Positions 31,740 through 64,000 of a DNA stretch of 64,000 nt are shown here, in pieces. This stretch comes from a virus: positions 62,001 to 126,000 of the IMG/VR virus record IMGVR_UViG_3300017917_002441; one strand, given 5' to 3'. The translations under genes were made by a program, and so were the position numbers. The notes beneath the pieces are model-generated. The model had not been told where the DNA came from. It did not search any database and saw only the letters and a list, made by a program, of their open reading frames with translations. Positions within the stretch are counted from its first letter, which is position 1; each line of letters begins with the position of its first letter.

Positions 31740-31766
31740 TCTGTTGTTTTTTTACAACACTCAAAG

Positions 31767-31788
31767 CCTCCCCTAGCGGGAGGTTTTC
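31767..31788 (+). terminator. Rho-independent terminator
   Basis: CCTCCC pairs with GGGAGG followed by TTTTCTT, directly after the phasin gene. Confidence 0.88.
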
Positions 31789-31794
31789 TTTTGG

Positions 31795-31824
31795 TTGACT
31801 AATTATTGACTTTTCTGCTATACT
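31795..31824 (+). promoter_or_regulatory. Promoter of the lipoprotein gene
   Basis: TTGACT (31795-31800), 18-base spacer, extended TGC then TATACT (31819-31824). Confidence 0.8.
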
Positions 31825-31855
31825 AGCTATACGATTGTAACCTAGAGGAAAGTCA

Positions 31856-32548
31856 ATGAAACACACTGTTATGAGTATTGCTGTAGTAGCCGCCCTAGGC
31901 TTGTCAGCATGTAGTTCAACTAAAACTGCTGATGTCGGCGCCGGCGCCTTGGTGTCACCTGGGGCACAACAAGCCATCAGCGAGCAACGTCTTGAAAACA
32001 GTTTCAAGAGACAAGGTATCAAAGTCGTTTACTCAATGTCGGGCAAGCTTGAGGCAATTGAAACCACAGGCTATGCGCCAGTCTGGGGCAGTAGCCAAAA
32101 TGCCGCACGTGAAGCATTTCGTGTTGCAGAGCTAGAAGCCAAGAAGTCGCTTAATGACTTTATTAATCAAGAAACTATTCGTACTTCAACTTCTGTACGC
32201 ATGATTTCCAAGAACTTGGAAAAAGCCACAGACAACAAAACCAACAACTTTGCCACAAATCGCGGACGCGATTCAGTAGCAGCCATGACCGAGGATGGTG
32301 ACTTGACTGGCGAAACTCAAGCTGGCGATGTCAACCGCGAAGAGAATACCGCACTACGCAAGGATGCGCTGGCCATTGCTAGTCGTGTAAACACCACAAT
32401 TGTTACACAAAACCGTGGTATCCTTGGTGGCTTGTACCTTGTGGAGGGCAACGTCATCAATGATGGCAAAACTGTGCGTGTGGTATATCGTTGGGACGAA
32501 AAGCACACCGAAGTTCGCAAAATGGTTCGCAACGCAATGGCGCAATAA
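31856..32548 (+). CDS. Predicted lipoprotein
   Basis: 230 residues with lipobox GLSACSS. A helical region (AREAFRVAELEAKKSLNDFI) is followed by a polar middle and strands at the end (GGLYLVEGNVINDGKTVRVV). It resembles LPP20/FlgT-type envelope proteins in layout. Adjacent to an exported protein (32551), so the pair may act together at the outer membrane. Confidence 0.78.
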   Translation: MKHTVMSIAVVAALGLSACSSTKTADVGAGALVSPGAQQAISEQRLENSFKRQGIKVVYSMSGKLEAIETTGYAPVWGSSQNAAREAFRVAELEAKKSLNDFINQETIRTSTSVRMISKNLEKATDNKTNNFATNRGRDSVAAMTEDGDLTGETQAGDVNREENTALRKDALAIASRVNTTIVTQNRGILGGLYLVEGNVINDGKTVRVVYRWDEKHTEVRKMVRNAMAQ

Positions 32549-38470: not shown

Positions 38471-38584
38471 CCAATCTGGGCAGATGCTAGGCATCCTAAG
38501 TCCTAAATCCAGGATAAAGATTGGTAACGTGCTAAGTCATTGATTTCTAAAGGAAAATTTTTCTAATAGAATCAATGACTTAGC
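38471..38584 (+). ncRNA. Structured intergenic element
   Basis: No gene in 38458-38657. CCAATCT (38471) pairs with AGATTGG (38518) around two smaller hairpins (ATGC-TAG-GCAT; ATCCT/AGGAT). Directly after, GCTAAGTCATTGATT (38531) pairs with AATCAATGACTTAGC (38570), 15 perfect pairs with a 24-base loop. Could be a small RNA, a processed 3' end or a protein-binding site. Confidence 0.5.
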
Positions 38585-38598
38585 TACGTATAAAACAG

Positions 38599-38627
38599 TT
38601 GACCAAAAATGCCCAATTTGCTATAAT
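38599..38627 (+). promoter_or_regulatory. Sigma70-type phage promoter (family copy)
   Basis: TTGACC (38599-38604), 17-base spacer ending GCCCAATTTGC, TATAAT (38622-38627), leader ATAGGTATAGTGAAC. Confidence 0.93.
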
Positions 38628-53712: not shown

Positions 53713-53936
53713 TGCGTGACTTGAACTGGTATCTCAAGTGGTTGGCACTAGCGGCAACTCTCAGTGGCGCACTGTGTACCAGTTTGAGGATTGACCCTTT
53801 GAATGTGTACCTACTGAATTTGGGTGCATTGCTGTACCTGATTTGGAGTGTGCGCATTCGAGAGCTGAATTTGGTAGCCGTCAACGCTGGTTTATTGACC
53901 ATTTACGTTGTAGGGTTATTTTTTGGTAGATCTTGA
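53712..53936 (+). CDS. Small membrane protein
   Basis: 74 residues, about three hydrophobic helices (WLALAATLSGALCTSL, LLNLGALLYLIWSV, NAGLLTIYVVGLFF). Typical small phage membrane protein. Confidence 0.78.
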   Translation: MRDLNWYLKWLALAATLSGALCTSLRIDPLNVYLLNLGALLYLIWSVRIRELNLVAVNAGLLTIYVVGLFFGRS

Positions 53937-54306: not shown

Positions 54307-55083
54307 ATGGCTGGTTTTGTTGATGTTAGTAACATGAGTGCATTGGAGATCAAGCGTCTGGGCCAAATGGACGACGATGTAGAGGACCAGCCCCGTCAAC
54401 GCCGTTATGGCAAGTATCCGTCGACTCCCATTGTGGAGTACTCTGTAGACAATGTGTGGGCCGCGGCAGTGGCTGCTCAGCGAGTGAACGGCGCCTACTA
54501 CAAAGAAAATGTTTACAACTGGGACGACGCCACCCAACAACAGATTTTGGTCAAGCGCCGTAATCGCGACGTCATGATGAGTTACTTGCAAGACCCCAGC
54601 CAGCTCACTGCTGAAGACATCCAGCAAGGTCAGAATGTGCGCAACTTTATTCAAAGCGACATTACCTTCCGTGGGCTCAAAGGCAAGCTCACTGACTTTG
54701 ACTCTTCGGCTAGCCGTGTAGCGGCTGTGACTGGGGTGTTCAACACCGCCAAGCACAAGCTTGAACTGGCCACTGTGGCATGTTTGCCAGCCAGTGCCGA
54801 GCGCAGTCGTGCTCGCCAAGAATCCAGCAATCGCATCAGCATGGCCCAGGGTGGCTACATTGGCAAGCCCGATGATCGTGTGGTAGCCAATATTGAAGTG
54901 CTGGAATCATCTTACAGTCAAAAGTGGAATCTGTACTGGATCAAGGGCATTACTGACCAAGACCAACCAGTGTTCTTTAGCTTCAAACGAGGCATTGACT
55001 CTGGTACACGCATGTCAATACAGGGCAACGTCAAGGCCCATCGTGACAACTTGACTCAACTCAACCGTGTCAAAATTGTTTAA
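54307..55083 (+). CDS. Conserved phage protein
   Basis: 258 residues from ATG 54307. Helical N-terminal half; blocks TFRGLKGKLTDFDSSASRVA and SYSQKWNLYWIKGITDQDQP. Basic surface and strong promoter suggest an early nucleic-acid-related role, but nothing specific is visible. Confidence 0.8.
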   Translation: MAGFVDVSNMSALEIKRLGQMDDDVEDQPRQRRYGKYPSTPIVEYSVDNVWAAAVAAQRVNGAYYKENVYNWDDATQQQILVKRRNRDVMMSYLQDPSQLTAEDIQQGQNVRNFIQSDITFRGLKGKLTDFDSSASRVAAVTGVFNTAKHKLELATVACLPASAERSRARQESSNRISMAQGGYIGKPDDRVVANIEVLESSYSQKWNLYWIKGITDQDQPVFFSFKRGIDSGTRMSIQGNVKAHRDNLTQLNRVKIV

Positions 55084-55092
55084 GGAGACAAC

Positions 55093-55221
55093 ATGAAATC
55101 ATTTATCGCAGGCACTATTTTTGGACTGGTGATTGCAACTGTGGGTTTCTCGGGCGTGGCCCGTATGCTGGACAACGGCGTGGCCAAGGTGCAAGAGGTC
55201 AGCAAGGAAGCGGCAAAATGA
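55093..55221 (+). CDS. Tiny membrane-anchored protein
   Basis: 42 residues: MKSFIAGTIFGLVIATVGFS then an amphipathic helix ending VSKEAAK. AAGGAG site; ATGA overlap with next gene. Confidence 0.7.
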   Translation: MKSFIAGTIFGLVIATVGFSGVARMLDNGVAKVQEVSKEAAK

Positions 55222-55340
55222 AATACGTAATTCTATCGATTTCCGTAGCAATGCTCACAGCATGCGGTACTGTAGGCGGTGCTGTGTCTGGCGCTGGTCA
55301 GGATCTGACCCGAGCTGGTGAGTGGATTAGAAATCGGTAA
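55218..55340 (+). CDS. Entericidin-like lipopeptide
   Basis: 40 residues. Signal sequence with lipobox MLTACGT, then GAVSGAGQDLTRAGEWI, the pattern of bacterial entericidins (small outer-membrane lipoproteins; EcnB is toxic, EcnA protects). A phage copy may influence envelope integrity or lysis. Confidence 0.72.
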   Translation: MKYVILSISVAMLTACGTVGGAVSGAGQDLTRAGEWIRNR

Positions 55341-55359
55341 ACCAGAATTCAAAAAGTGG

Positions 55360-55388
55360 TTGACATCAATTCCGATTTCAGCTATAAT
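55360..55388 (+). promoter_or_regulatory. Promoter of the 55460 gene
   Basis: TTGACA (55360-55365), 17-base spacer, TATAAT (55383-55388). Confidence 0.9.
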
Positions 55389-55394
55389 TTGAAT

Positions 55395-55415
55395 ATGTTG
55401 AAAATTGTTCAACAT
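55395..55415 (+). promoter_or_regulatory. 5'-terminal hairpin
   Basis: ATGTTGAA pairs with TTCAACAT around AATTG. It begins at the predicted +1 (55395). Confidence 0.65.
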
Positions 55416-55459
55416 TGTTTTTAAACTTTGATAGGCAACTTTAGAAAGGCAACTTCAAA

Positions 55460-55822
55460 ATGGCAACAGAAAAAATGTTCACTGTGGCAGGTACTGCAAC
55501 TCACAAGGGTGTTACCAAGGTTCGTTTTGCTAACGATCTCGTGGCACGTATCAAGATCCTCAACAAGGCTGGCGCAACTAACGTCAATTTGATTGAACTC
55601 CCCCATGCAATGACCAAGCTTGATGCACTCAAGTATTTGGCAGAGCAAGGCATTACCGAAGGCGATGCTGGTTATGCTGTGTCCAACAAGCTGGCCGAAA
55701 AGTCCAAGGTAGCCAAGAAAGGCGAAGTCAAGGTGGCTGGCAAAGGTCTCAAAGCCAAGACCAAGACCACTGCTGTCAAGGCTGAAGTGCCTAGCGACGC
55801 GGTGGAAAGCACCAACGCTTAA
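55460..55822 (+). CDS. Conserved phage protein with basic tail
   Basis: 120 residues. MFTVAGTATHKGVTKVRFAN, then LVARIKILNKAGATNVNLIE; the C-terminal 45 residues are Lys/Ala-rich (KGLKAKTKTTAVKAE), like a nucleic-acid-binding tail. Strong promoter and stem-protected leader imply high expression. Confidence 0.8.
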   Translation: MATEKMFTVAGTATHKGVTKVRFANDLVARIKILNKAGATNVNLIELPHAMTKLDALKYLAEQGITEGDAGYAVSNKLAEKSKVAKKGEVKVAGKGLKAKTKTTAVKAEVPSDAVESTNA

Positions 55823-55851
55823 TATGGCCAGTAGCTGGGGCTACGGCCCCT

Positions 55852-56004
55852 GCTATAGATAAGTGCTAATAAAGGTATCGTTACAGGACGCTGTAACTAT
55901 TCGGGCCTAACTGGCGAGGAACAGGTCCTGATACAACTGGTTAGTCGCTGTGGAACGGAAGCACCGGACTCCTAAATAGACCACTCTTAGCACTTATCTA
56001 TAGC
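55852..56004 (+). ncRNA. Highly structured non-coding element
   Basis: GCTATAGATAAGTGCTAA (55852-55869) pairs perfectly, 18 of 18, with 55987-56004. Inside: GTATC (55875)/GATAC (55930) encloses hairpins GTTACAG-GACG-CTGTAAC (55880-55897) and GGGCCT (55903)/AGGTCC (55923, one G-U). A further arm pairs TGGT and AGTC (55938-55946) with GACT (55967) and ACCA (55980). Just before it lies GGGGC-TACG-GCCCC (55837-55850). No reading frame explains the region. Candidate regulatory RNA, ribozyme or replication/packaging element. Confidence 0.72.
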
Positions 56005-56087
56005 ATCAATCAGTGACGAAAAATAGTATTTCGTATAGGGCTGGTATAAGTATTTTTATATCATTGCCCGCAAAGGAAAAATCCCAA

Positions 56088-57170
56088 ATGAAAATATCCC
56101 GCATTCCTAATTTAGGTAGCTTCGGTGTCTACATCGATGACTTTGACATGGACCGTGCCTCCCCCGAGGAGTGGTTAGAAGTTGGTAAAATTTTTGTCAA
56201 AGAACTAGTGGTAGTTTTACGAAACATCAACATCAGCAAAGAACAATACTACGATCAAATTCCAAAGTTTGGCCCAATATACAACATTGCAGGTTCTTAT
56301 TTTTACAAGAAATATGGACACAATAATTTTAATAGAAACCCAGCAACTTGGGAACCCTTGGACGACCTTGACAAGAAGTTCATGGAGACTCGTTACATTC
56401 GCCAAGAAGATATTGGCAATAACAAATACCTTTCTAGAATTTATGGCGGCCGCGATGAGAATGGCCAGAGCCTAGGCTATTTTGATTCTGGTGACTTGTT
56501 TTGGCACAGCAACGAGGCTTCATCCCTGACTTTTGCTCCGTGTGTGTCATTATTGGGCTGGGAATCCATGGGTGGCAGCTCAACTGGATTCACCCAAACA
56601 GTTGATGTTTATGAAAACTTGCCCGAAAGCCTGCGCAAAGAACTTGATGAAATGGTGTTGGTACATGACTATGTTCCAGGTGTAGTCAACCCTGGCGAAA
56701 TCACAGACCCAGTTATGGCCAAGCACACACTGATGAACTTTGGTCCTTTCCCGGGCATGGAAACACCTTTGGTGTGTACTGCCCCCAACGGGCGCAAAGG
56801 ACTGCATTATGCAATTCACTCACGCAATGGCATTCGTGGTATGTCAAAAGAAGAGTCTGACAAACTGTTTGCACGACTTGACAAACTGATCTTTGCCGAA
56901 AACAATGTGTACGATCACTGGTATGACGAGCAACGTCGAGATTTGTTGTTGTTTGATAACAGTGTTACACTGCATCGTAGAATTGGTCACCAAGAAGGCC
57001 GCCTGGCATATCGTGTTCAGTTTACGCCCAGCGAAGTAGTTGAAAAGCCTTGGCTGCCTTGGGCACACATGCCAGCATGTGATCAACAATACCGTATCGA
57101 AATGAAAACATTGGTTGACTTGACTGGTGGCGACTTGCAGGCTCGATACAAAGTACCCGAGTTAGTTTAA
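56088..57170 (+). CDS. TauD/TfdA-like dioxygenase
   Basis: 360 residues from ATG 56088 (AAAGGA site). The presumed first metal motif is FWHSNEASS, His-x-Asn where TauD-type enzymes have His-x-Asp/Glu. The distal His (DNSVTLHRR) and 2-oxoglutarate Arg (LAYRVQFTP) are present, as is the GGSSTGF block. Either the ligand differs or the activity is altered. Substrate unknown. Confidence 0.82.
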   Translation: MKISRIPNLGSFGVYIDDFDMDRASPEEWLEVGKIFVKELVVVLRNINISKEQYYDQIPKFGPIYNIAGSYFYKKYGHNNFNRNPATWEPLDDLDKKFMETRYIRQEDIGNNKYLSRIYGGRDENGQSLGYFDSGDLFWHSNEASSLTFAPCVSLLGWESMGGSSTGFTQTVDVYENLPESLRKELDEMVLVHDYVPGVVNPGEITDPVMAKHTLMNFGPFPGMETPLVCTAPNGRKGLHYAIHSRNGIRGMSKEESDKLFARLDKLIFAENNVYDHWYDEQRRDLLLFDNSVTLHRRIGHQEGRLAYRVQFTPSEVVEKPWLPWAHMPACDQQYRIEMKTLVDLTGGDLQARYKVPELV

Positions 57171-57173
57171 CCA

Positions 57174-57233
57174 AATTGGCATAATTAATGTTATGCCAAT
57201 TATCTATATAAGTCGGCCACAAACTTGGCCGAC
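57174..57233 (+). other. Tandem hairpins between genes
   Basis: AATTGGCATA pairs with TATGCCAATT (57174-57201) and GTCGGCCA pairs with TGGCCGAC (57212-57233). Neither has a T tail. They fill most of the gap before the 57245 gene. Confidence 0.55.
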
Positions 57234-57244
57234 ACAAAACCCCA

Positions 57245-57487
57245 ATGTCTGTTTTAAATTTTAAATCAGCAGATCCACTTTATATTGTGATCATGCGAGA
57301 AGGTCAGGCCGAAGCACTATTTCGTTCCTGGATCAAAACCAATCGAATAGAGCATGCTATTGTCAACGGCAATCGTATGATGTTGCATCATCAAAATGCA
57401 TTTGACAGACTGTTGGTTAGTTGGAGTCATAGCTGGGACAATATCACTATCTGGGACACGTGGCATAGGCGTCACATTTACATTTGA
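57245..57487 (+). CDS. Small phage protein
   Basis: 80 residues, MSVLNFKSADPLYIVIMREG..., Trp-rich end (WSHSWDNITIWDTWHRRH). No clear ribosome site; weak candidate. Confidence 0.6.
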   Translation: MSVLNFKSADPLYIVIMREGQAEALFRSWIKTNRIEHAIVNGNRMMLHHQNAFDRLLVSWSHSWDNITIWDTWHRRHIYI

Positions 57488-57515
57488 TCAAGAGTGCCAA
57501 AATCCTTGGAATTTA

Positions 57516-57544
57516 TTGACACCTCCTTGTGCGGCTCGTATAAT
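57516..57544 (+). promoter_or_regulatory. Promoter overlapping an anti-SD arm
   Basis: TTGACA (57516-57521), 17-base spacer, TATAAT (57539-57544). Spacer bases CTCCTTGT (57523-57530) are complementary to the ribosome site ACAAGGAG (57555-57562). Confidence 0.88.
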
Positions 57545-57568
57545 TAATGCTGTTACAAGGAGAACTAC

Positions 57569-57757
57569 ATGTCACAACAACACGACACTATTAAACAAGC
57601 ATTCGAAACTTATCTAGCCGAGAACGAAAAGTTTACAGCCAAGGGCGTCAAGGCATCTGCCGCACGTGCCCGCAAAGCTTTGCAAGAACTTAGCAAAGCC
57701 ATCAAAGAACGTCGCAAAGAAATCACAGCAGAAAAAGAAGCTCTGGCCGCCAAGTAA
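57569..57757 (+). CDS. Histone H1-like (Hc1-type) small protein
   Basis: 62 residues, Lys/Ala-rich helices (GVKASAARARKALQELSKAI, KERRKEITAEKEAL). Resembles Hc1/H1-like DNA-binding proteins; could condense DNA. Strong promoter. Confidence 0.7.
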   Translation: MSQQHDTIKQAFETYLAENEKFTAKGVKASAARARKALQELSKAIKERRKEITAEKEALAAK

Positions 57758-57924
57758 TGAGTCAGTGTTTCACCAGAAGTGTGATCCAAGATCCTGACAA
57801 CCCCGAAGACCTGTTGCTGGACCTTGGCACAGAACTCTGTGAACTAGCCGGGTGGAAGCCCGGCGATGTCATTGAGTGGATAGATAACAAGGACGGAACA
57901 TGGACTCTACGGAAACAAAGTTAA
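57757..57924 (+). CDS. Small conserved phage protein
   Basis: 55 residues, MSQCFTRSVIQDPDNPEDLL..., then GDVIEWIDNKDGTWTLRK, which resembles an AbrB/antitoxin-like or transcription-regulator strand pattern. TAATG start. Confidence 0.7.
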   Translation: MSQCFTRSVIQDPDNPEDLLLDLGTELCELAGWKPGDVIEWIDNKDGTWTLRKQS

Positions 57925-58406
57925 ATGAAATCCAGATCAATCTGGATTCTATGATAACTGATTACAGTAGTGATTACAGTACTATCAGGATGTCTGATTA
58001 CAATATAAACATTTCAGACACCATTACACTGAGCAACACCGGTGCTATCAGCGGAGCAATGGGCTCCACATACCAATACCCCAATGTTACAATTGCCAAC
58101 GGTGCTTATACCACCAGCGCATTTGGAAACGTGTGGGGAGGAAATCCACTAACAGTTGGCGGATCAGGACAAGTTGATCTCATAGGTGAAAATGCTGATA
58201 TCAAAATCAACGGCAAAAGTTTGTGCAAAGCAATTGAAGCCATTGAACAACGACTCAACATACTCACCCCCAACACCAAACTAGAAGCCGAGTGGGATGA
58301 ACTACGCAAGCTAGGTGAACGCTATCGTGAGCTAGAAAAGCAGTGCTTGGAAAAAGCCGAGATGTGGAAAAAGCTCAAATCAATGCCCCCACCCGAAATA
58401 GTATGA
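57900..58406 (+). CDS. Putative virion protein with coiled coil
   Basis: 168 residues. Polar, strand-rich first half (SDTITLSNTGAISGAMGSTY) then KINGKSLCKAIEAIEQRLNI and a coiled coil. I recall the C-terminal block from T4-like phage proteins. Overlaps both neighbours. Confidence 0.74.
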   Translation: MDSTETKLNEIQINLDSMITDYSSDYSTIRMSDYNINISDTITLSNTGAISGAMGSTYQYPNVTIANGAYTTSAFGNVWGGNPLTVGGSGQVDLIGENADIKINGKSLCKAIEAIEQRLNILTPNTKLEAEWDELRKLGERYRELEKQCLEKAEMWKKLKSMPPPEIV

Positions 58407-59200
58407 CACCAAAACAAAGAATCAAGCACATAGTTTCGTGGATACGGAATTATGCCAAACAAAACAAAATCCAAACCTTGGTTGTTGGAGTAAGTGGTGG
58501 TATTGATTCTGCTGTGGTGTCTGCGCTGTGTGCCAAAACTGGTATGAGAACTGTGGCACTGAGCATGCCTATTCGTCAAAGCGAACACACGCACAATCTA
58601 AGTCAACAACATTGTATGTGGTTGGTCAATCGCTACGAAAACGCAGAATTCCATAACATTGATCTTACGTCTACATTCGAGCAATTTGAATCTGTTACAG
58701 TGCAGTTTGGTAATCAGCTGGCCTATGCAAACACTCGCAGTAGATTGCGAATGACAACACTGTATCAAGTAGCACAGGCCATGGACGGTATTGTAGTGGG
58801 CACCGGCAACCGAGTAGAAGACTTTGGAGTAGGATTCTTTACCAAGTACGGCGATGGCGGCGTGGACATCAGCCCCATTGCTGACTGTTTGAAGACTGAA
58901 GTGTGGGACATGGGCCGCGAGCTAGGTGTGTTATCAAGCATTATTGATGCCGCACCCACTGATGGATTATGGGACGATCAGCGCACTGACGAAGATCAAA
59001 TTGGCATGACATATCCTGATCTAGAGCGTATGATGGCACTAGACTTCTTGAAACGTGCGCACATTGTAGATTCCAGTATGCCCGGGAGTGCCAAACTCAA
59101 CGCAGATGACCGTAAAAAACTAAAACGCTACCAAGAACTACGTGCAAGAAACATGCACAAAATGATCCCAATACCTATTTGTAAAATACCCAAGGAATAA
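58403..59200 (+). CDS. nadE: NH3-dependent NAD synthetase
   Basis: 265 residues from ATG 58403. PP-loop [53 protein letters not shown] and [15 protein letters not shown] match NadE. No glutaminase domain, so ammonia is used. It would help the phage keep NAD levels. Followed at once by ferredoxin. Confidence 0.94.
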
Positions 59201-59202
59201 AG

Positions 59203-59529
59203 ATGACTTATGTTGTAACCGAAAGCTGTGTCAAATGCAAGTACACCGACTGTGTAGATGTTTGCCCAGTTGACTGTTTCAAAGCTGGACCAAACTTTCT
59301 TGTAATTGATCCCGACGAGTGCATTGATTGTGCTGTATGCGTAACCGAATGTCCGGTGAATGCTATCTACGCTGATCGAGATTTGCCCGAAAGCCAACGA
59401 GAATTTTTGGATATCAATGCTCGTCTAGCTAAAAACTGGCCTACAATTAGCAAAAAGATTGAGCCACTGCCTGATGCAGAAGAGTGGGCTGGTGTAACTG
59501 AAAAACGACATTTAATCGATCAAGGTTGA
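59203..59529 (+). CDS. fdxA: FdxA-type 7Fe ferredoxin
   Basis: 108 residues. First cluster site [17 protein letters not shown], second [12 protein letters not shown], giving the 3Fe-4S plus 4Fe-4S layout of the FdxA family. C-terminal helix DAEEWAGV also fits. Electron carrier; the partner in the phage is unknown. Confidence 0.95.
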
Positions 59530-59554
59530 CAACTAACTCAAAAACTCATATAAT
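59526..59554 (+). promoter_or_regulatory. Promoter upstream of the 59583 region
   Basis: TTGACA (59526-59531), 17-base spacer, TATAAT (59549-59554). Confidence 0.88.
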
Positions 59555-59582
59555 AGTGTTTTATTAGTTAAAACCCTATATT

Positions 59583-59984
59583 ATGGAAAAAATTGAGTGT
59601 TTTGGCAGTTTTTTAACTGATGTAGACAGTCAGAAACTAAGTAAAACTGAACGCGGAAAACAGATACCGGCGCTTTTTAAGCCATTGAAAGGGTCCGCGA
59701 ACACTTGCAGTCCGTTGCAAGATAATAATAATAAAAATACGGACACACGTTGCAGTCTTGGAATTTCGTCCAAAATACCAAGGCTGTTCGAAAGAGGGCT
59801 TCGGAAATCCTCTTCGTTGACAAATGGTATTGATTCCGCCAAACACTGTAGCGATATGGACGCTGGTGGAATCCAAGAGAGTATGCCAAAGAAGGCCCGA
59901 GGTCTCGCACATAACTCTGATGTAAATATCACGTCAACGTCGTTCATCTTGAACAACTCCGGTGAACAGCTCACTATTAGCTGA
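59583..59984 (+). CDS. Uncertain gene or structured leader of the lysin
   Basis: A 133-codon frame (MEKIECFGSFLTDVDSQKLS...) Ser/Asn-rich with no family likeness. Minus-strand frames are open here too, and the DNA is hairpin-rich: CTTGCA/TGCAAG, CTTGG/CCAAG, CGAAAGAGG/CCTCTTCG and ATTCCGCCA/TGGTGGAAT (one G-U). It may be a coding gene or a long structured leader or RNA preceding the lysin gene. Confidence 0.42.
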   Translation: MEKIECFGSFLTDVDSQKLSKTERGKQIPALFKPLKGSANTCSPLQDNNNKNTDTRCSLGISSKIPRLFERGLRKSSSLTNGIDSAKHCSDMDAGGIQESMPKKARGLAHNSDVNITSTSFILNNSGEQLTIS

Positions 59985-59996
59985 AAGGAGAAAACG

Positions 59997-60563
59997 TTGA
60001 AACTAACTTCAATTAATCGTTTAGGCAGTACAGCCTTAAAGGTTCTAGGTTTCGTAGCTGTGATTTTTGTAGTGGCTTCTGCCACCAATGCCAAGCTTGA
60101 TTCCCTGAAAGGAACCAATGAAGTAGCCCGCCAAGGATTTGTCAGTGTGGCGGATCGTACCAAGCAACTTGAGTGCTTGACACGTAACATTTATTGGGAA
60201 GCTGGCACAGAACCTTTTGAAGGCAAAGTAGCAGTGGCCCAAGTCACCTTGAACCGTGTGGAATCCGGTCGCTTTGCTCGTGACATTTGCGGTGTGGTAT
60301 ATCAAAAGAATGTGATCTATGACAAAGTAGTATGTCAGTTCTCATGGTTCTGTGATGGGTCCAGCAAGGTCCGACCCATTTATCCAGCACACTGGAAAGA
60401 AGCCGAAGAAGTAGCCAAAAAGGTTCTACTAGAAGGCTTTAGACTACCCAGTCTCAAAGATGCTCTTTATTTCCATGCTGATTATGTAAACCCGCAATGG
60501 AAGAAAGAAAAAGTAGCAAAGTTTGGTCGACATATCTTTTACGCAGAACGGAATAACATATGA
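59997..60563 (+). CDS. SleB-type cell wall hydrolase (lysin)
   Basis: 188 residues, TTG start with AAAGGAG. N-terminal hydrophobic anchor (LGFVAVIFVVASATN), then the hydrolase-2 fold: CLTRNIYWEAGTEPFEGKVA (catalytic Glu), VTLNRVESGRFARDICGVVY, CQFSWFCDG and ALYFHADYVNPQW. Lysis role likely. A signal-anchor form would give regulated release. Confidence 0.92.
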   Translation: MKLTSINRLGSTALKVLGFVAVIFVVASATNAKLDSLKGTNEVARQGFVSVADRTKQLECLTRNIYWEAGTEPFEGKVAVAQVTLNRVESGRFARDICGVVYQKNVIYDKVVCQFSWFCDGSSKVRPIYPAHWKEAEEVAKKVLLEGFRLPSLKDALYFHADYVNPQWKKEKVAKFGRHIFYAERNNI

Positions 60564-60877
60564 TCATGCAACGACTGGAAGAATTTAGAAAAAACTTCAA
60601 CGTCTGGACCAACCAGCACTTCAGCAAAATTTCAGCTGATACCTTGGGCTGGTTGGCAGTGATATTGATTCATTGCTCAACTATTCCCACCTTGTTGGCA
60701 TTGCTGACAGGACTCAGCGACACTGTACCCAATTTGGACATTGTGATGTTTATGTGGGCTGGCTTGGTGTTGTTGTTTGCACGTGCTGTGGTGCTCAAAG
60801 ATACTTTGAATATCATCACAGTGGGTGTGGGCTTTATTGCCCAAGCAGTGATCATGGCAATGATCTTGTTCAAATAA
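60560..60877 (+). CDS. Small membrane protein, possible holin
   Basis: 105 residues with three or so hydrophobic segments (GWLAVILIHCSTIPTLLALL, VMFMWAGLVLLFARAVV, IITVGVGFIAQAVIMAMIL). It overlaps the SleB gene by four bases, so a holin role is plausible from position. Confidence 0.75.
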   Translation: MIMQRLEEFRKNFNVWTNQHFSKISADTLGWLAVILIHCSTIPTLLALLTGLSDTVPNLDIVMFMWAGLVLLFARAVVLKDTLNIITVGVGFIAQAVIMAMILFK

Positions 60878-60880
60878 TGC

Positions 60881-60909
60881 TTGACCAAAAATCCCCATTT
60901 TGCTATAAT
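60881..60909 (+). promoter_or_regulatory. Phage promoter nested in a terminator-like repeat
   Basis: TTGACC (60881-60886), 17-base spacer, TATAAT (60904-60909). Spacer AAAAATCCCCATT (60887-60899) is perfectly complementary to AATGGGGATTTTT (60925-60937). Confidence 0.92.
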
Positions 60910-60937
60910 ATTGTTATTGTGAGTAATGGGGATTTTT
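60887..60937 (+). terminator. Read-through terminator / SD-masking stem
   Basis: A 13-pair stem with a 25-base loop and T run. Only RNA coming from upstream can form it; RNA started at about 60916 lacks the 5' arm and keeps the GGGGA site free for ATG 60939. Confidence 0.75.
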
Positions 60938-60938
60938 T

Positions 60939-61343
60939 ATGACCATGCATCTTGAAGGCCCTTGGCTGAGTACTACTGGCAAGCTAAAAAGCAAACGCAG
61001 AAAATATGCATCAGCAGATGCCGCCCGCAAGGCTCGAGAACTGCAAGCTGAGTGGGAACGCCGGCAACAAGAGTGGGACAAGCTGGCTCCAAAGTTCAGC
61101 AACAACAAAATGGCCAAAGCCCGGCCCAAATCCAATTTCCCTACATATCAACCTCCTCCCGGACGTGAAACTGTTCGTATTCCCAGCCTCAACAACGGTG
61201 TTGATACCGGGGTTGCTACACGTGCTCCTGACAAAGTGTACACTGGTACCAAGATCAAAGGCATTGGTACCATGCACAAATCCAATGCAGTGCCAATCTT
61301 TTCAGATGAGCAAGCTGTGGAAATAAGTAAGATGCGACGTTAA
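60939..61343 (+). CDS. Conserved phage protein (MTMHLEGP)
   Basis: 134 residues. Start [20 protein letters not shown] and the C-terminal [11 protein letters not shown] plus [12 protein letters not shown] are family blocks I know from many T4-like and other phages. Function unknown. Confidence 0.83.
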
Positions 61344-61363
61344 CAAAAGGAAAGCAAACTCAA

Positions 61364-61582
61364 TTGGCCAAAGAAGAAGGTTTTAAAATGGAAGGGCAAG
61401 TGGTAGAGGTACTACCCAACGCCATGTTCCGTGTCAAATTAGATGTAAATGCAACACCGGTGACCGGTATCATTTCAGGAAAAATGCGACAGCACAATAT
61501 CAAAATTCTCTTGGGAGACCGAGTAGAAATTGAATTCAGCCCATATGATCTAACTCGTGGGCGCATTACCCGTAGAAAATAA
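61364..61582 (+). CDS. infA: Translation initiation factor IF-1
   Basis: 72 residues, the same length as E. coli IF-1. TTG start fits because the product then reads [19 protein letters not shown] like E. coli [45 protein letters not shown] and [14 protein letters not shown] complete the S1-type OB fold. It binds the 30S A site and assists initiation. A phage IF-1 may reshape initiation together with the bS21 encoded at 13042. Confidence 0.95.
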
Positions 61583-61590
61583 ATATCAGT

Positions 61591-62133
61591 ATGCGTGAAC
61601 ATATTGATCTCATTGAAGCTAGCACTCGCCCAGCCAAACTAGAAACCACTCCGCTTCCTTACGGGGAACGAGATCTAGAACCTGTGATGAGCCGTGCTAC
61701 AATCAACTACCATTACGAACATTTAGCCAAAGGCTATGCAAAGCGTTACAACGCAGGAGAGGGCAATGCCAATTTTAATCGTGCTGGCAGTTATTTGCAC
61801 AATAAATTTTTCCCTCAACTTCGTGCTCCTAAACCCAGCAACCGCCCCAAGGGTGCTGTACTTGCGTTGATCGAAGAGCACTTTAAGACTTGGGAAGATT
61901 TCAAAGAATCTTTCAAAGAAGAAGCAATGAAGATACAAGGGTCGGGTTGGATTTATTTGAGCACATCGGGTGACATCAAAACCATTGCCAACCATGCTGT
62001 GCGCACTGATATCTGCATGCTGGTGGATTGGTGGGAACATGCTTGGGCTCTGGACTACCAAAGCGACAAAGAAGCATATCTAAACAATATCTGGAAAATT
62101 ATTGACTGGGACGTTTGCAACGAACGACTATGA
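61591..62133 (+). CDS. sodB: Fe/Mn superoxide dismutase
   Basis: 180 residues. Metal ligands in order: His in [10 protein letters not shown], His in [10 protein letters not shown], then Asp and His in [23 protein letters not shown] is also typical. Slightly short of the usual 190-200. It starts eight bases after infA and overlaps erpA. Confidence 0.92.
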
Positions 62134-62453
62134 TTACAATTACTGATTCTGCTGTTGAAAAAATTCGAGACATTCTTGCTGAAGAAAACAACCCCAATCT
62201 GCGATTGCGTGTGTTTGTGCAAGGTGGCGGCTGTTCGGGATTTCAGTACGGCTTTACACTAGATGAAGACCACAACGATGACGACTTTAATATCGAAGCT
62301 GGTGGTGTTGAAGTTTTAGTGGATGCAATGAGCAGTCAATACCTTCAAGGTGCCACAGTAGACTACAAAGAAGATGTGTACGGTGCCAACTTTACCATCA
62401 ACAATCCGCAAGCTGTTTCCACTTGCGGATGCGGTTCAAGTTTTTCTATTTAA
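62130..62453 (+). CDS. erpA: A-type Fe-S carrier (ErpA/IscA)
   Basis: 107 residues from ATG 62130. Conserved cysteines sit in [11 protein letters not shown] and CGCGSSFSI. It delivers Fe-S clusters to apo-proteins, possibly the phage ferredoxin. Overlaps the sod stop (ATGA) and the opposite-strand adhesin stop by four bases. Confidence 0.94.
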
Positions 62454-64000
62454 ACGTCAATAAAGAACGGGGTAACCCAGTTCTCGCTGCCAAATAATCC
62501 ACCACCGCCCATGTTTACTTGTGTCACAGCTATACCGGCTGCGGCACACTTGGCCAAGAACAAGTTGTAAGACGAACGCACAGTGTCTGTGGTCATGCTA
62601 CCTGAATTGTCCACTGCTAGTATTACTTTACTACCGGCAGATGCATTGTCAAGACCGCAGATAACAAACCAGTCAGAAACTGCACTGCTACCGTTGTCGC
62701 GATTTACAGCAATAGGGCCTCGAGATCCCCGATAATTATAATAGTTGTCAGGAACTTTCAAACTGCCTTGACTAGGGCCACCGGGTTGTAACAAGTTAAA
62801 TGCACGTAGCGGATAAGTGGCTGTGAATTGATCCCAGTTAGATTGTATAGTACCAGCGTTGACGCTACACTCGTCAATGACAGCAACACAGGATACAAAC
62901 GGAGTGCCTACAGAACTGCTTCGACTGACGTATCCAAACTGACCTGACGCAACAACAAAGTTTGGTGCGTAAGTGCCTGATACTGGTTCCCAAATTCCGT
63001 TTACATTTACAAAGTCACCTTTGACTGGATACCAATCACCGTTGTCTTTGACCCAGGTTTGTTTGACTGGTTGCCAACCGTCGTTGACCTTGACAAAGGT
63101 GCCATTGATATCAAAATCTAGTACAGCGTAGCCTGGGTTACCAGCTTGGCCAGTTGTGCCACCGTAGCCCACACCCCCGCCAGGGTAATACCCTTGTCCA
63201 GTTCCGCCAGGTGCTCGGCCACTGGGGTTAGCACTGACATCACCACGATTTCCGCCATAGAAACCAGGATATCCCCAAGTGTCATACGGTGCTTGATTGC
63301 CACCTTGTCCTGCACCCCAACCGCCACCTCCGGCTCCACCGCCACCGCCATCGCCCTCACGATCAACGCCGTCGCCACCAATGCTGATGCCAATTGCGGC
63401 TTGCCCGGCGGAACCAGGTGCATTGCCCGGTTGACCTCCACCGCCATTGATACCGGCACCTGCGCCACCACCGCCACCACCGGCTACAGCAACAACGACT
63501 CCGTTCTTTCTTAGCACTGTGGCTCCACCACCGCCGCCACCGCCACCAGACGACCCAATCCAACCTGCGCGGCCGCCAGATCCACCGCAGAAAGAATTAC
63601 CACCGTTGATAGACAATGCAAAACTGCCCGGACCACCAGTGTTTACGCCATACAATCTAACAGTGTGATTGCCTGCTGTTACGTATACACGAGCAATATA
63701 AGTGGTTCCGTACCCTGAAATATTCAGTATATTTGCCCCGTCAAGATAGATGTAACCGTAGTTGTCAACAGATCCTTCAAATGTGTACACACCGGTGCTA
63801 GGGAAGTTTACTGTGTAAGATCGATCAAATATTGCACTGCCACCACCGGCTTCATTCCAAACTCCATAGTTGTTTAGGAATGTGCAGTAAGCACTGTTTT
63901 GTACTCTAGGCAATCCAAGGTCGACTGTGTTAAAGAGGCCGCCACCTAGTAACAAACTAGGTCCGGCTGCGCCACCACTGGCACCGCCATAATATCCCCA
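62450..64000 (-). CDS. Polyglycine / VWA tail adhesin, N-terminus beyond window
   Basis: At least 516 residues; open to the window edge. A beta-rich N-terminal part ([18 protein letters not shown], like a PA14/fibre domain) is followed by a roughly 170-residue polyglycine region typical of receptor-binding tail adhesins. Then come three short repeats ([36 protein letters not shown]) and a VWA-like end with MIDAS DNSGSM. It should recognise the host surface. Confidence 0.82.

Follow-up and report, generated by a model that had tools for sequence, protein, structure and literature searches.

The boundary behind the lysis genes of a T4-like phage raises the question of whether the gene that follows is read from the lysis transcript or from a promoter of its own, and what part is played there by a hairpin whose arms lie in that promoter's spacer and in the leader of the gene. 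The window, by which we mean the whole stretch of DNA analysed (64,000 nt, positions 62,001 to 126,000 of the 149-kb IMG/VR record IMGVR_UViG_3300017917_002441), holds at 60881-60909 a sigma70-type promoter, TTGACC-17-TATAAT. The arms at 60887-60899 and 60925-60937 are complementary at 13 of 13 positions and enclose the -10 box in the 25 nt between them. The features of the locus are as follows.

59997-60563, + strand: endolysin gene (Cell Wall Hydrolase, PF07486), first of the upstream lysis pair
60560-60877, + strand: putative holin, a small hydrophobic protein, with its stop codon at 60875-60877
60881-60886, + strand: -35 box TTGACC, 3 nt past the upstream stop codon
60887-60899, + strand: 5' arm of the hairpin, AAAAATCCCCATT, within the promoter spacer (60887-60903)
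60904-60909, + strand: -10 box TATAAT, in the hairpin loop, preceded by TG as in extended -10 promoters
60916, + strand: putative local transcription start, placed by its spacing from the -10 box (7 nt after)
60925-60937, + strand: 3' arm of the hairpin, AATGGGGATTTTT
60928-60932, + strand: ribosome-binding site GGGGA, inside the 3' arm and predicted to be buried in read-through RNA
60933-60938, + strand: T6 run, a terminator-like tail past the stem core that abuts the start codon
60939-61343, + strand: downstream gene, 134 aa, phrog_27048, function not assigned, with a start (MTMHLEGPW) kept in relatives
61364-61582, + strand: homologue of translation initiation factor IF-1, next in the downstream run

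We call the upstream protein a holin from its place and its hydrophobicity, as it has no Pfam or PHROG match, and the predicted structure of the 134-aa downstream protein (pTM 0.28) is not informative. Cell-like genes lie near the lysis pair (58388-62453), namely those for NAD synthase, ferredoxin, IF-1, an Fe/Mn superoxide dismutase and an iron-sulphur assembly protein.

The original prediction described a spacer that is a perfect 13-base complement of the leader, including GGGGA and a T run, and every point of that description holds in the sequence: the 3' arm contains GGGGA together with most of the T6 run before the ATG at 60939. The read-through RNA folds with -26.8 kcal/mol (z -3.98 against shuffles), the 25-nt loop being partly closed by an inner hairpin, and the predicted openness of the ribosome site in this RNA is 0.22. 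As had also been proposed, RNA from the putative start at 60916 would lack the 5' arm, and here the site is predicted to be open (0.59).

The reading that we consider probable is that of an operon-boundary insulator, in which a promoter sits inside an RNA hairpin and the downstream gene is read mainly from its own promoter. The endolysin-holin read-through RNA would carry both arms, which would allow the promoter spacer and the next gene's leader to pair; the stem would bury the ribosome site of that gene, and the T-run past the stem would stop part of the polymerases. RNA from the nested promoter, beginning near 60916 and thus after the 5' arm, would form no stem and be translated. In this scheme we infer where transcription starts, how translation is affected, how much termination takes place and what the phage gains.

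Of the two halves of the proposal, masking is on firmer ground than termination, because the gap between the holin stop codon and the 5' arm is 9 nt, a distance at which ribosomes repress terminators. A terminator examined in a test system worked with an efficiency below 10% when placed 5 nt behind a stop codon and with one of about 90% at 28 nt, the cause being the trailing ribosome (PMC4824070). Given this 9-nt gap, termination at the window site is plausible but may be weak there (PMC4824070), and the loop of 25 nt, long for an intrinsic terminator, also counts against it. The earlier claim that read-through RNA both hides the site and terminates is supported by computation, through the predicted openness and through the forms found in relatives. 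GGGGA is itself a weak ribosome site even when open.

How far could such pairing arise by chance at a single locus? Among dinucleotide-shuffled leaders, 33 of 20,000 pair equally well with the spacer, and a longest exact spacer-leader match of 13 is estimated to occur by chance in 1 of 5,000 cases at this locus. The 149-kb record as a whole contains only two perfect inverted repeats of at least 13 bp with gaps of up to 45 nt. Ten sibling promoters in the window have similar spacers (for example AAAATTTCCCAATTTGC) and show exact complementarity of 3-8 nt, compared with 13 here; in several of them the initial transcript ATAGGTATAGTGA is followed by a ribosome site such as AAGGAG. The leader at 60910-60938 resembles such an early-type leader (compare ATAGGTATAGTGAGTAACAAGGAG at 53933) and appears to have had its ribosome-site region swapped for the spacer complement. 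Following the -10 box, the window phage and the Methylophilales phage Melnitz (L505:1750-1800) have the early-type initial transcript ATAGGTATAGTnA in common; Melnitz also has a promoter of this early type behind its relative of the holin, where inspection by eye showed no leader pairing. Corrected for the approximately 22 promoters per genome, the single site alone is only moderately significant, and the observation is secure because of the comparative test across relatives.

IMG/VR contains hundreds of relatives of the downstream gene (phrog_27048), and we compared those with a promoter before the gene, using as control spacers and leaders exchanged between loci. Native spacer-leader pairing over 57 clusters of these homologues was -6.9 kcal/mol versus -4.84 kcal/mol when swapped, a difference reached in 0 of 20,000 permutations. 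The pairing sequences vary among relatives (ACCTCCAAACTTG/CAAGTTTGGAGGT, AACTCCTGTTAT/ATAGCAGGAGTT, AAAACTCGTATTT/AAATACGGGTTTT and others), and in 27 of 27 paired cases the upstream gene is co-directional, its stop codon lying -4 to 13 nt before the -35 box. For relatives sharing CCAAAA/TTTTGG compensation is weak (cluster p about 0.04), because this core is conserved, and the case rests on the other groups. Relatives of the downstream gene in the isolated phages PhiW-14, ACP17, C48C1 and BUCT-ZZ01, viewed through their annotation only, are too remote for a comparison.

A second comparison picked the boundary sites solely by the stop codon of the homologous holin, which removes any choice by pairing or by downstream gene. 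A promoter and start were present at 62 of 128 distinct post-holin boundaries. Mean pairing for these 62 promoters was -12.55 kcal/mol as against -7.15 kcal/mol when swapped; none of 20,000 permutations reached the native value, although sequences and registers differ, and reversed-sequence controls gave -6.9 and -7.2. Sites at -9 kcal/mol or better numbered 46, where 15 were expected (n = 62). When reduced to 19 cluster representatives, the mean energy still lay beyond all 20,000 permutations, whereas the count of sites with strong pairing (11 of 19) matches, but does not exceed, the maximum of 5,000 permutations. In eight close relatives that were aligned, the stem exchanges C-G for G-C and A-U for U-A, with a covariation score of 0.24 versus at most 0.09 in slid registers. 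The insulation reading thereby finds computational support in a structure that is kept, with changed sequence, at the same boundary in relatives.

Three loci (L005, L011 and L059) have another open reading frame first behind the holin, and there the hairpin-promoter precedes that frame, from which it follows that the device belongs to the boundary. It is not required in every relative, since 16 of the 62 post-holin promoters are without pairing and 66 of the 128 boundaries are without such a promoter. In five further post-holin loci (L121, L067, L127, L383 and L157), the spacer between the -35 and -10 boxes consists of a hairpin of its own, with 8 bp and a loop of four bases (mostly TTCG), one example being TTGACA CCACCTTCGGGTGGTGT TATACT with the full hairpin between the promoter boxes. 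Behind the holin of distant relatives (L169, L140, L188 and others) stand T4 late-like motifs, GATAAATA, of which the window has none.

The relatives also differ in what the stem covers. In terminator-only forms (L171, L050, L070, L026 and others) the -10 box sits between the arms and the stem ends in a T-run, the ribosome site lying further down and outside the stem. In mask-only forms (L443, L450, L453 and L454) the ribosome site lies within the stem, which has no T-run behind it; the downstream gene of these loci begins MAFHLE and is probably a relative of the window's gene. The window combines both functions, as do L448, L442, L446, L464, L462 and L043. The automatic labels for these forms are rough, and several R labels with a 17-nt gap between stop codon and -35 box (MKKA genes) are probably due to chance. 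The existence of mask-only and terminator-only relatives supports the two halves of the insulator proposal separately. Furthermore, the median stop-codon gap is 20 nt in terminator-only relatives compared with 12 nt in the combined form, which fits the reading that ribosomes repress termination close behind a stop codon. Taken together, sequence and comparison show the pairing, its specificity for the boundary, its upkeep with changed sequence and the occurrence of mask-only and terminator-only forms.

The strongest competing explanation is that the hairpin only hides the ribosome site, as in T4 e and I-TevI, and that the T-run is a mere T-rich gap before the start codon. The T4 precedent (PMC2988022, PMC3014915), the relatives at the same boundary that have no T-run and the repression by ribosomes of terminators close behind a stop codon (PMC4824070) all speak for it, but the terminator-only forms at the same boundary do not, nor, in relatives of the downstream gene, does the T content before the start codon, which is higher with strong pairing even with the last 6 nt excluded from the pairing score (cluster p 0.003), an enrichment beyond the demand of pairing itself. 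We therefore hold masking alone to be a tentative possibility. Conversely, it is unlikely that the element serves solely to end the lysis operon as an intrinsic terminator, overlapping the next promoter for lack of space and hiding the site as a side effect. The stem with its T6 and the terminator-only relatives would accord with this, as would the canonical short-loop terminators found directly before other promoters in the window (4625, 31784 and 41113), given that none fits between holin stop and promoter here; against it stand the mask-only relatives without a T-run, the 9 nt to the stop codon and the 25-nt loop.

Less likely still is a 3'-end stabiliser or processing hairpin of the lysis mRNA with no role for the downstream gene, which would explain why a hairpin lies directly behind the holin stop codon in many relatives, but has no need of a 3' arm that coincides with the ribosome site, as it does in the mask forms, where 7-8 nt separate the stem end from the start codon. 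A role of the repeat as a DNA operator bound by a dimeric regulator, which symmetric arms flanking the -10 box might suggest, is very improbable, considering that arm sequences, lengths and registers vary while complementarity stays and that a conserved regulator would keep the sequence. Chance complementarity, to which the equally good shuffled leaders at the one site leave some room, is scarcely credible against the permutations across relatives.

In its wider form, the insulator reading would describe a recurring boundary device of largely uncultured T4-like phages, a proposition on which we are evenly divided. The spacer would be kept complementary to its own leader, and lineages would change from one form to another (terminator, mask or both) with the promoter remaining in the loop, such that about 60 bp serve as promoter, terminator and translational lock. 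Selection would then act on the promoter spacer, usually deemed free sequence, via its RNA copy in the transcript of the neighbouring operon. Terminator-only, mask-only and combined forms at one homologous place provide natural sets with which the insulation of neighbouring operons in compact genomes is directly testable, and the parts could serve as very short insulated promoters.

Perhaps the closest likeness is to the hairpins of T4 e, soc, 49 and I-TevI, in which the ribosome site is sequestered in long early transcripts; in the case of e and I-TevI, translatable RNA comes from late promoters within the hairpin region (PMC3014915, PMC2988022). As in these and in segB and Aeh1 mobE, a stem in long upstream RNA buries the site and a short RNA from an inner promoter, devoid of the 5' arm, is translated (PMC3014915, PMC2988022), which for the window is a prediction. 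Folding and pairing probabilities predict the ribosome site to lie in a stem of long transcripts only, and the promoter match at 60881-60909 puts the likely start near 60916, past the 5' arm. The phage is likewise of T4 type, and T4 e is also tied to lysis genes, although the masked gene here follows the lysis genes and is not one of them. Unlike the T4 late promoters (TATAAATA), the window promoter is of sigma70 type with -35 and -10 boxes and a spacer that forms the arm; additionally, a T-run is added and terminator-only relatives occur. The late motif TATAAATA has two chance-level matches in the window and none at this site, which we therefore do not file as a member of the T4 e and I-TevI group. 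What is new compared with T4 e and I-TevI, from which the masking logic is already known, is that a sigma70-type spacer acts as the arm and that the forms are interchangeable.

The site also shares with intrinsic (Rho-independent) terminators a G+C core stem followed immediately by a T-run (AATGGGGATTTTTT), with an upstream A-run that pairs with the T-run. It is distinct from them in its proximity to the upstream stop codon, in a 3' arm that doubles as ribosome site and in a loop that measures 25 nt rather than approximately 3-8 nt and contains the -10 box and the inner hairpin; a standard terminator scan does not list it. Rfam riboswitch and leader families gave no match at gathering score in 55000-64000, and the open-access literature searched yielded nothing apt on a promoter nested in a terminator. 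Analogous masking operates in the transposase genes of IS10 and IS50, in which RNA from outside promoters folds over the ribosome site and RNA from their own promoter does not. Those are insertion sequences, whereas the present site is a phage operon boundary with a phrog_27048 gene, and no transposase, behind the mask; we know of no nested -10 box in a terminator-like loop in IS10 or IS50.

A genome-wide check of spacer complementarity, proposed along with the original prediction, gave only a slight excess in five genomes. In five related genomes, 32 other promoters with an upstream stop codon no more than 25 nt away had no excess of pairing (-4.67 versus -4.71), and we reject the idea of a general device of these phages. 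The nested form is particular to the phrog_27048 gene and the boundary behind the lysis genes, apart from a few other cases such as a GroES-like gene (L239:15701) whose promoter lies in a terminator-like hairpin (GTTGCC..CATGT / ACATGGCAAC, then CTATTTTTT).

Elsewhere in the window, a pairing at 57516 (CCTCCTTGT / ACAAGGAG) before a 62-aa gene at 57569 was dismissed as chance, with -4.64 versus -4.59 among 43 relatives with a promoter (27 clusters). At 31766-31860, a canonical terminator directly precedes the promoter at 31795, whose spacer (TTGACTTTTCT) also pairs, at -14.8 kcal/mol, with a lipoprotein-like gene across its ribosome site and start codon; the only relative found is without such a promoter. 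At 38531-38584, shortly upstream of the promoter at 38599, lies a perfect inverted repeat of 15 bp (GCTAAGTCATTGATT) whose loop measures about 24 nt.
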